DNA of 35,525 nucleotides from an uncultured Halorubrum sp. (GTDB lineage Archaea > Halobacteriota > Halobacteria > Halobacteriales > Haloferacaceae): the NCBI RefSeq assembly GCF_937146585.1, contig NZ_CAKZRO010000024.1, positions 1-35,525 of the forward strand, in the 5' to 3' direction. Both the position numbers and the translations under genes were made by a program. The stretch's first letter is position 1. Every line of letters begins with the position of its first letter. Positions 25,174 to 27,665 of this stretch are shown here, piece after piece. The notes beneath the pieces were generated by a model. The model was not told where the DNA came from. It did no database searches and saw only the letters and a program-made list of their open reading frames with translations.

Positions 25174-26397
25174 TCAGTACTGGTAGTTGATGACCTGCTC
25201 GTCTTCCTTGTCGGCGTCCTGGAGCTTGTCGCGGGCGCGTTCGAAGTCCTCCTGGGCCACCTCGGTGCGGCCGTCGCGGATGGCGAACATCCCGGCCTCC
25301 GTCGCCAGCGACGCGATGTCCGCGCCGCTGTACCCGTCGAGGTCGGCGGCGACGGTGCCGAGGTCGATGCCGGCCGCGACGTTCATGTCCTGCGTGTGGA
25401 TCTCGAGGATGCGCCTGCGGCCCTCGGGGCCGGGCTCGGGCACCTCGATGAGGCGGTCGAAGCGGCCGGGACGGAGGATCGCCTCGTCGAGCATGTCGAA
25501 GCGGTTGGTCGCGGCCATGATCCGGATTTCGCCGCGGTCGTCGAACCCGTCCATCTCCGAGAGCAGCTGCATCATCGTCCGCTGGACCTCGGCGTCGCCC
25601 GAGGTCTTCGAGTCCGTCCGCTTGGCGGCGACGGCGTCGATCTCGTCGATGAAGATGACGGCGGGCTCGCGCTCGGCGGCGAGTTCGAAGAGGTCGCGGA
25701 CGAGCCGCGCGCCCTCGCCGATGAACTTCCGGACGAGCTCGGAGCCGGCCATCTTGATGAACGTCGCGTTCGACTCGTTGGCGACCGCCTTCGCGAGCAT
25801 CGTCTTCCCGGTGCCCGGCGGGCCGTGGAGCAGGACGCCGCTCGGCGGTTCGACGCCGACCGTCTCGAACTGCTCGGGGTTCTCGAGGGGGTCCTCGACG
25901 GCCTCGCGGACCTCCCGGATCTGGTCGTCGATCCCGCCGATGTCGGCGTAGGTGACGTCCGGGGACTCGGTGACCTCCATCGCCTGCGCCCGGGAGTCGG
26001 TCTCGTCGTCGAGCACCTGTTGGACCGCGAAGGAGTCGTTTATCGCGACGCGGTCGCCGGGGCGGAGGTCCTCGTCGAGCCGCGTGGCGGCCTGCGTCAG
26101 CACCTCCTGGTTGTTGCCGTGCTGTTTGATCACGACGCCGTCGTCGGTGATCTCCTCGACGGAGGCGATGTACAGCGAGGAGGTCTTCAGCACCTCGTTC
26201 TCGCGTTTCAGCTGCTCGACGTCGTCTTTCAGCTCGCCGCGGCGACCCTCGGCGTCCGCGAGCCGGGTTTCCAGTTCCTCGTTCACTTGGACGATCCGCC
26301 GGAAGTGCTGGCGGATCGCCTCCAGCCGCTCCGCGTCGCTCATCTCGGGGTCGAGCTCCAACCGCGGGCGGTCGGGCAGTGAGGGGCTGTGAGACAT
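25174..26397 (-). CDS. panA: Proteasome-activating nucleotidase (PAN)
   Basis: Hexameric AAA ATPase that unfolds proteins and feeds them into the 20S proteasome. The 407-residue protein has an N-terminal coiled coil (about 20-72), an OB-fold domain (about 73-130) and the AAA module. Walker A is GPPGTGKT (192-199), Walker B FIDEID with Asp251 and Glu252, sensor-1 [10 protein letters not shown], and arginine fingers RPGRFDR. The C-terminus reads VINYQY: the penultimate residue is Gln, so a strict HbYX tail is absent although Tyr sits one place earlier. A minus-strand CATTTACG near 26423-26430 may be the TATA box. Proteasome subunit genes are not in the window. The symbol assumes the main PAN paralogue. 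Confidence 0.94.
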
Positions 26398-26522: not shown

Positions 26523-26536
26523 TATCAGTTCTGATA
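26523..26536. promoter_or_regulatory. Perfect 14-base palindrome upstream of the HalX unit
   Basis: TATCAG-TT-CTGATA, a perfect 6-2-6 inverted repeat ending 14 bases before the TATA box at 26551, in the PAN/HalX divergent gap. A plausible binding site for a dimeric regulator of either gene; the regulator is unknown. Confidence 0.4.
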
Positions 26537-26550
26537 AACGGGAGTCAACG

Positions 26551-26556
26551 TTTTAA
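26551..26556 (+). promoter_or_regulatory. TATA box of the leader ORF-HalX unit
   Basis: TTTTAA centred about 27 bases before the ATG of the 26-codon ORF at 26581, not before the HalX start at 26658. Confidence 0.55.
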
Positions 26557-26580: not shown

Positions 26581-26661
26581 ATGGACGCACGAACGGCGGG
26601 CGGCCGCGCCGGTCCGGCGCTCGCAGATCGCGAGACGAGGACCCGGGGGCCCCTCCAATGA
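26581..26661 (+). CDS. 26-residue leader ORF coupled to the HalX regulator
   Basis: A short ORF (begins MDARTAGGRAG, ends RGPLQ) whose ATG sits at the leaderless distance from the TATA box at 26551-26556. Its TGA overlaps the HalX ATG as ATGA (26658-26661). The peptide is rich in Arg, Gly and Ala with no recognisable domain. Ribosomes entering at 26581 would end exactly on the next start codon, so it may act as a translational leader for HalX. It could also be a chance frame in an untranslated leader. Confidence 0.4.
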   Translation: MDARTAGGRAGPALADRETRTRGPLQ

Positions 26662-27269: not shown

Positions 27270-27554
27270 CTACTCTATCTCCAGATCGCCGTCGCCGCTT
27301 CCGTCGCCGGCGTCCTCGTCCCACTCCAGTTCGAACTCGACGCTCAGCTCGCCCGGTCCCTCGGCGGGCCCCTCGCGCTCCGCCTTCACCTCGAAGGTCG
27401 GTCGCGCGGGCGGCTCCAGCGTCGTCGACTCGTCGCCGCGCGTGAGGGTGATCGCGTTCCCGGCGTCCAGCGAGTCCGCGACCGTCCGCAGGTACGCGGC
27501 GATCTCCTCGCGACTCCGACGGCTCTCCGACTTGAACAGGACTGTTTCGACCAT
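27270..27554 (-). CDS. amphi-Trp domain protein
   Basis: A 94-residue protein matching the amphi-Trp family: an N-terminal VLFKSESRRSREEIAAYLRTVADSLDAG helix region, then ITLTRGDESTTLEPPARPTFEVKAERE, GELSVEFELEW and an acidic end (DEDAGDGSGDGDLEIE). The family is small, common in haloarchaea and other prokaryotes, and of unknown function. The open frame extends to 27662, but a strong TATA box (GTTTATATC on the minus strand, centre 27 bases from the ATG) fixes the start at 27554. It converges on the HalX gene and is divergent from the small membrane protein gene. Confidence 0.88.
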   Translation of the reverse strand: MVETVLFKSESRRSREEIAAYLRTVADSLDAGNAITLTRGDESTTLEPPARPTFEVKAEREGPAEGPGELSVEFELEWDEDAGDGSGDGDLEIE

Positions 27555-27576
27555 ACGTCGGTGTAGGGGCCCTCCG

Positions 27577-27585
27577 GATATAAAC
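27577..27585 (-). promoter_or_regulatory. TATA box of the amphi-Trp gene
   Basis: Minus-strand GTTTATATC centred about 27 bases before the ATG at 27554. Confidence 0.65.
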
Positions 27586-27633
27586 ACCGTCGCGGGACCC
27601 ACGGCGCGGGACGGCGGCGGCGTCGCCCCCGAT

Positions 27634-27641
27634 CGTTTTGT
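27634..27641 (+). promoter_or_regulatory. TATA-like box of the 131-residue membrane protein gene
   Basis: CGTTTTGT centred about 28 bases before the GTG at 27666; leaderless layout, moderate match. Confidence 0.4.
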
Positions 27642-27665
27642 GCCGCGCCGCCGAACGCACACCCC

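Follow-up and report, generated by a model that had tools for sequence, protein, structure and literature searches.

A conserved short ORF at a predicted transcript start ends on the start codon of a REC-HalX gene in Halorubrum

Gene arrangement at the HalX locus

The window (the whole stretch of DNA analyzed here, 35,525 nt from an uncultured Halorubrum sp.) contains a gene for a REC-HalX response regulator, hereafter HalX, the product of which has both the receiver and the PF08663 domain that characterize this class. Upstream of it lie a short leader ORF encoding the peptide MDARTAGGRAGPALADRETRTRGPLQ, a TATA box, an inverted repeat and a divergently oriented neighbor (Table 1). From our reading of its domains, the neighbor was named a putative proteasome-activating nucleotidase (PAN-type). 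A gene for an Amphi-Trp domain protein (PF20068) also adjoins HalX, on the opposite strand (27273-27662, minus strand).

Table 1. Features of the HalX locus, with positions in the window.
Feature	Position	Strand	Remarks
PAN-type AAA ATPase, divergent neighbor, synteny anchor	25174..26397	-	PF00004 3.2e-44, PF16450 5.6e-7
Inverted repeat TATCAG-TT-CTGATA, candidate regulator-binding site	26523..26536	.	Separated from the TATA box by 14 nt
TATA box TTTTAA, predicted leader/HalX promoter	26551..26556	+	Begins 30 nt 5' of the leader ATG
Predicted leaderless leader ORF	26581..26661	+	26 codons (coordinates with the stop included); ATG at 26581, stop TGA 26659-26661; found in 49 of 51 congeneric loci
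GGGGG inside the leader ORF, where relatives carry Shine-Dalgarno-like GGAGG	26645..26649	+	Sequence
ATGA shared by the HalX start and the leader stop	26658..26661	+	HalX ATG 26658-26660; overlap of 4 nt in 46 of the 49 leader-bearing loci
REC-HalX response regulator, 185 aa	26658..27215	+	PF00072 6.9e-19, PF08663 3.3e-15

The first-pass annotation of this DNA had proposed that the TATA box is spaced for a start at the leader ATG and not at the HalX ATG, and that a 26-codon ORF ends on the HalX start as ATGA. Both proposals agree with the coordinates. The distance between TTTTAA and the leader ATG is that of a leaderless ORF, the TATA box of which is spaced for transcription to start at the start codon. 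The HalX ATG shares bases with the leader TGA, and the resulting ATGA is one of the arrangements (stop and start overlapping as ATGA or TGATG, or lying very near each other) that mark translationally coupled pairs.

In the window, the HalX frame upstream of its ATG is open but contains no ATG, GTG or TTG. An Rfam scan of the window returned no family at gathering score. The combination of TATC-N6-GATA followed by TTTWWA within 10-18 nt occurs once in the assembly from which the window was taken. A pattern search of this assembly with the 5' motif of the leader, allowing up to three mismatches, matched 14 places, the window being the sole exact one.

Conservation of the layout across Halorubrum

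We searched 52 Halorubrum genomes and found HalX orthologues in 50 of them at E 1e-65. A shorter HalX match in genome G014 was added, resulting in 51 loci; genome G010 yielded none. Each of these 51 loci has a PAN match adjoining HalX.

All ATGs near the HalX start were tabulated for the 51 loci. We assigned 20 leader ATGs and 15 HalX starts manually, and a rule requiring leader and HalX to overlap by 3-5 nt picked the others. When more than one in-frame ATG was available (e.g., L007, L009, L041, L044 and L051), the one approximately 30 nt past the TATA box was chosen, so that some leader ATGs were selected with the TATA box in view. For HalX in L038, L048 and L049, a start in contact with the leader was given precedence over another in-frame start. 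Because some starts were chosen by spacing or overlap, the counts of spacing and overlap given below depend partly on these choices; furthermore, the loci are related, and all counts and p-values based on the 49 leader-bearing loci are hence those of non-independent observations.

The leader ORF was present in 49 of the 51 loci. Loss of the frame in near relatives, which the first-pass annotation had named as grounds for giving the ORF up, was not the pattern found in this sample: start, frame, overlap and TATA spacing were kept in these 49 loci, and the overlap was exactly 4 nt in 46 (ATGA in 45, GTGA in one), subject to the choice of starts described above. The other overlaps were 1 nt (TGATG; L038), 8 nt (L045) and 11 nt (L047). 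Leader length was exactly 26 codons in 40 of the 49 loci; two leaders had 25 codons, and there was one each of 22, 24, 27, 28, 39, 41 and 45 codons. The distance from ATG to ATG ranged from 65 to 137 nt, yet it equaled 2 modulo 3 in 47 of the 49 loci, with L045 and L047 breaking phase. In the MSGR clade (seven loci), the leader always had 26 codons, and HalX had 195 to 207 aa in six, the seventh being L051 (see below).

Several loci deviated individually. The leaders of L016 (41 codons, MTVCSPSERVSAS...) and L037 (39 codons, MTERSPTARVSFS...) looked by eye unlike the usual peptide, as if the leader sequence had been replaced and the layout retained. In L051, the locus of G014, HalX similarity within one frame was confined to residues 5-114, with the ORF extending to 336 aa, which suggests that this HalX gene carries a frame break. 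In L029 (genome G027), the HalX frame breaks soon past the VDDEPDLAELYRV motif, owing to either a sequencing error or a pseudogene.

We located A/T-rich hexamers relative to both start codons. A hexamer with six of six A/T positions was found 24-35 nt 5' of the leader ATG in 45 of the 49 loci, and one with five of six in the other four. At the same distance before the HalX ATG, a six-of-six box was found in none of the 49 loci and a five-of-six box in two. Relative to the leader ATG, the best A+T hexamer began between -29 and -31 in all 49 (ties broken towards -30). Direct transcription start at HalX was considered and rejected, as the 49 leader-bearing loci have no six-of-six box at the corresponding distance and the window has no upstream in-frame start codon.

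The inverted repeat was also common: TATC-N6-GATA was detected 40-75 nt 5' of the leader ATG in 39 of the 49 leader-bearing loci. It is a candidate regulator-binding site; that it serves a dedicated regulator, perhaps HalX itself, is a guess.

The two loci without a leader, L015 and L018, belong to different subclades of the HalX tree (branch support values not considered). In both, the HalX ATG itself lies 30 nt after the start of the TATA box. Compared with L022 and L019, the promoter and HalX coding sequence are kept and the interval between the two ATGs, 77 nt in these relatives, is absent. Since the leader and HalX both start with ATGAGCG in L022 and L019, the leader was likely lost via deletion between short direct repeats. 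A HalX ATG at the position set by the TATA box is what coupling to a leaderless start would predict. In our view, these alleles suggest that selection favors a 5'-terminal start codon leading to HalX and that the peptide would be dispensable.

RNA pairing was compared between the 49 loci and shuffled sequences. In the first 15 nt of the leader, the unpaired value was 0.57 versus 0.45 in shuffles (Wilcoxon p 2.5e-6), and such reduced pairing is a property that a leaderless start would need. The 15 nt 5' of the HalX ATG were slightly more paired than in shuffles (0.31 versus 0.36 unpaired, p 0.005), and the HalX AUG was slightly less paired (0.72 versus 0.65 unpaired, p 0.015); all three p-values are optimistic because of locus kinship. 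A Shine-Dalgarno (SD) hairpin or RNA switch was rejected, the pairing shifts before HalX being too weak for such a claim. In 16 of the 49 loci, GGAGG lies no more than 18 nt from the HalX ATG; the window has GGGGG, and dependence on an SD motif does not look general in these loci.

Selection on the leader and its proposed role

Selection on the peptide was estimated as pN/pS from the 40 leaders of 26 codons. For codons 7-26, pN/pS was 1.13 overall and, for single clades, 0.94 (A), 1.03 (B) and 0.94 (C). The two shifted frames gave overall values of 1.15 and 1.04, and 100 codons of the HalX receiver gave 0.36. The beginning of the leader was more constrained: pN/pS of codons 2-6 was 0.66 overall and 0.38, 0.48 and 0.26 in clades A, B and C, and a start of the form M(S/D)xRT was common to most loci. 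For codons 7-22, the values were 0.67 in clade A, 0.90 in B and 0.93 in C. The body of the peptide is near neutral overall, with a few residues well kept in the 26-codon leaders, namely Arg9 (34/40), Asp/Glu18 (36/40) and Arg25 (33/40). Peptide-coding selection was not supported over codons 7-26 as a whole (pN/pS 1.13); it may act on codons 2-6 and on the single residues.

We also simulated neutral evolution of the leader on the HalX tree, scaled to leader divergence, for 39 of these leaders (L029 was off the tree). No leader-bearing locus had been excluded for a premature stop. Under neutrality, an in-frame stop appeared in about 6 to 7 of the 39 tips, and 3-4% of the runs were free of stops, as are the observed leaders. 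At this rate, openness of the frame by itself is modest evidence, and the case rests on start, spacing, phase and overlap jointly. Taken in this way, the leader layout is real and far beyond chance.

Leaderless initiation is usual in haloarchaea. From the sequence, we infer the transcript start, translation of the leader and any regulatory purpose that it may have. We consider it probable that the leader is a leaderless ORF that delivers ribosomes to HalX by termination-reinitiation. The TATA box would set the first base of the transcript at the leader ATG or a base or two from it. A ribosome would enter at this ATG in a leaderless manner, translate the 26 codons, terminate on the TGA overlapping the HalX ATG and then reinitiate on HalX. 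The peptide would have little sequence-specific role past its first few codons.

Dependence of HalX on the leader, which the first-pass annotation had also proposed, is suggested by the pattern of conservation together with coupling published for haloarchaea. In the Haloferax volcanii work on overlapping gene pairs (PMC6728339), translation of the downstream gene is reported as strictly dependent on the upstream gene in nine of nine pairs. The same source describes SD motifs as used at overlaps and inactive in de novo initiation on 5'-UTRs; if SD motifs fail in this way, translation of HalX from this transcript would require the leader. The four pairs tested first there had strong SD motifs, the weight of the motif depended on the pair, and an SD motif inside the upstream ORF of coupled pairs is given as frequent and non-obligatory (PMC6728339). 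In Escherichia coli, the last 15 nt of the upstream gene are reported to be enough for reinitiation (PMC10666635). Several observations speak against the coupling reading: codons 2-6 and single residues are constrained, codons 7-22 have a pN/pS of 0.67 in clade A, open frames are fairly common in DNA this rich in G+C, GGAGG is found in only 16 of the 49 loci, and L045 and L047 are out of phase.

The layout resembles known systems in part. Like the Haloferax volcanii pairs, it comes from a haloarchaeon and has a 4-nt ATGA overlap; in those pairs, as reported, the upstream partner is an ordinary gene (PMC6728339), whereas in Halorubrum this partner is an ORF of 26 codons that lies where the transcript is predicted to start and encodes a peptide with a near-neutral body. 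Short ORFs ahead of haloarchaeal genes have been described in the same species, in which 16 of 97 long 5'-UTRs contain uORFs of 15-31 aa, but these sit in 5'-UTRs of 150-250 nt, and the part of that paper drawn on here makes no mention of overlap with the main start (PMC4983044). In a 2025 Haloferax ribosome-profiling paper, a term search of the main text matched neither "uORF" nor "HalX" (PMC12482152). Among the matches listed in our literature search, no title or abstract mentions a leader ORF preceding HalX genes, which is weak evidence of absence as the search covered the open literature, with most subscription papers outside it.

A regulated version of the layout was also considered, in which the speed of leader translation or the ribosome occupancy of the leader responds to a signal, be it tRNA supply, an RNA-binding protein or HalX itself, and coupling relays the change to HalX. 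Such attenuation would add to ribosome delivery and does not exclude it. Two bacterial precedents have been reported. The leader ORF of E. coli iraD is likewise a short ORF with a stop overlapping the downstream start; it is coupled to iraD, and CsrA represses iraD through this coupling (PMC5574718). The iraD leader differs in being bacterial, with an SD motif of its own and a known RNA-binding repressor (PMC5574718), whereas the Halorubrum leader is predicted to be leaderless and has no known effector. The uORF of Mycobacterium tuberculosis ppe2 shares the AUGA overlap, and ppe2 expression is reported to need translation of the uORF, mainly by termination-reinitiation (PMC11260477). That uORF is under a B12 riboswitch (PMC11260477), whereas the Halorubrum window is without an Rfam match.

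Within Halorubrum, attenuation would fit the constancy of the leader at exactly 26 codons in 40 of 49 loci and the well-kept single arginine positions, and the upstream inverted repeat in 39 of 49 loci hints at a regulated unit. The peptides themselves do not look like those of sequence-dependent attenuators, as no run of a single codon or amino acid is kept over the 40 leaders or across clades, and codons 7-26 are near neutral overall. Leaderless short ORFs in mycobacteria act as cysteine-responsive attenuators, reliant on a cysteine run. The Halorubrum leaders share with them a leaderless short ORF ahead of a gene, but none of the 49 has such a run. With no Rfam family at gathering score in the window and two congeners lacking the leader, we regard attenuation as rather unlikely.

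We give still less weight to a functional microprotein that works with HalX. It could explain the M(S/D)xRT start, the within-clade pN/pS of 0.26-0.48 for codons 2-6 and of 0.67 for codons 7-22 in clade A, and the three residues kept in 33-36 of the 40 leaders. A pN/pS of 1.13 overall and 0.94-1.03 within clades for codons 7-26, the absence of the leader from two of the 51 loci and the unrelated leader peptide of a HalX paralogue (see below) make it improbable.

If ribosome delivery is the role of the leader, candidate reasons for feeding HalX in this way include a lower or buffered level, use of GTG starts and a regulatory gate. The leader would then provide a clear example, in archaea, of an ORF retained chiefly for the position of its start and stop and not for its coding content. 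It would offer a compact test system for leaderless initiation and reinitiation, with natural leader-free alleles as controls, and would tie the mechanism to a large archaeal regulator family, the output domain of which was described in 2018 as having no documented function (PMC5847659).

Recurrence at other HalX genes

We inspected 81 further HalX loci, hand-picked from match lists and not a random sample: 41 from other genera (L052-L092), 12 from Halorubrum paralogues and 28 more from other genera. No PAN match was found within the roughly 3 kb taken around HalX in L052-L092. A leader (ATG, at least five codons, overlap of 4 or 1 nt, six-of-six box) was present in 13 of the 81 loci versus 0.89 expected from shuffled upstream sequences, with five of the 13 representing one Halorubrum paralogue, so that the loci are not independent. 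With a five-of-six box, the same rule yielded 23 of 81 versus 4.26 expected.

Presence of a leader depended on the group. A second Halorubrum HalX paralogue (approximately 189 aa) had one in all 26 loci sampled (L127-L132 and L241-L260, including six of the 81), of 14 codons in one locus and 15 in 25. This leader ends in GTGA and has a TATA-like box at -30 or -31, and its peptide (MPGEACPVAPGGDRR type) is unrelated to that of the window. Six of the 11 HalX loci in genus g28 had a 16-codon leader ending in GTGA. No leader was found in the 12 loci of genus g42 or in the six of a third Halorubrum paralogue (L121-L126).

The genomic background was estimated in 400 kb of a congener from 286 gene proxies (long ORFs selected on their G+C by codon position), using a layout rule that differs in detail from the one applied to the 81 loci. 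Without a TATA condition, a short ORF with an ATG start shared 4 or 1 nt with a possible start codon in 15 of the 286. Requiring an A/T box at the right distance left five (five of six or better) or three (six of six), and requiring a match to a fixed list of TATA hexamers left none. One of the three six-of-six cases (58 aa) looks SecE-like and is presumably an ordinary small gene.

An ORF that arose by chance in a G+C-rich, untranslated 5' leader would be compatible with the 3-4% of neutral runs that leave all 39 frames open and with the 15 of 286 proxies that have an overlapping short ORF when the TATA box is disregarded, but we give it almost no credence, as at least 46 of the 49 loci keep the ATG together with its TATA spacing, its phase and the stop overlap, and 13 of 81 other HalX genes bear a leader versus 0.89 expected and a background of three in 286.

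The recurrence allows a broader and more tentative proposal, which we rate as possible but somewhat short of an even chance: the REC-HalX class may have repeatedly gained leaderless feeder ORFs that end on the start codon, with lengths nearly fixed in each clade (26, 15-16 or 9-10 codons) and unrelated peptides, so that HalX output would be set by reinitiation. If true, this would place a translational gate on a whole archaeal response-regulator family, and leader length would possibly serve as a ruler.

A further feature was seen in four loci of the second Halorubrum paralogue (L127, L128, L129 and L131), which have a second strong TATA-like run (TATATAAAAGAC) approximately 75 nt 5' of the paralogue leader ATG.
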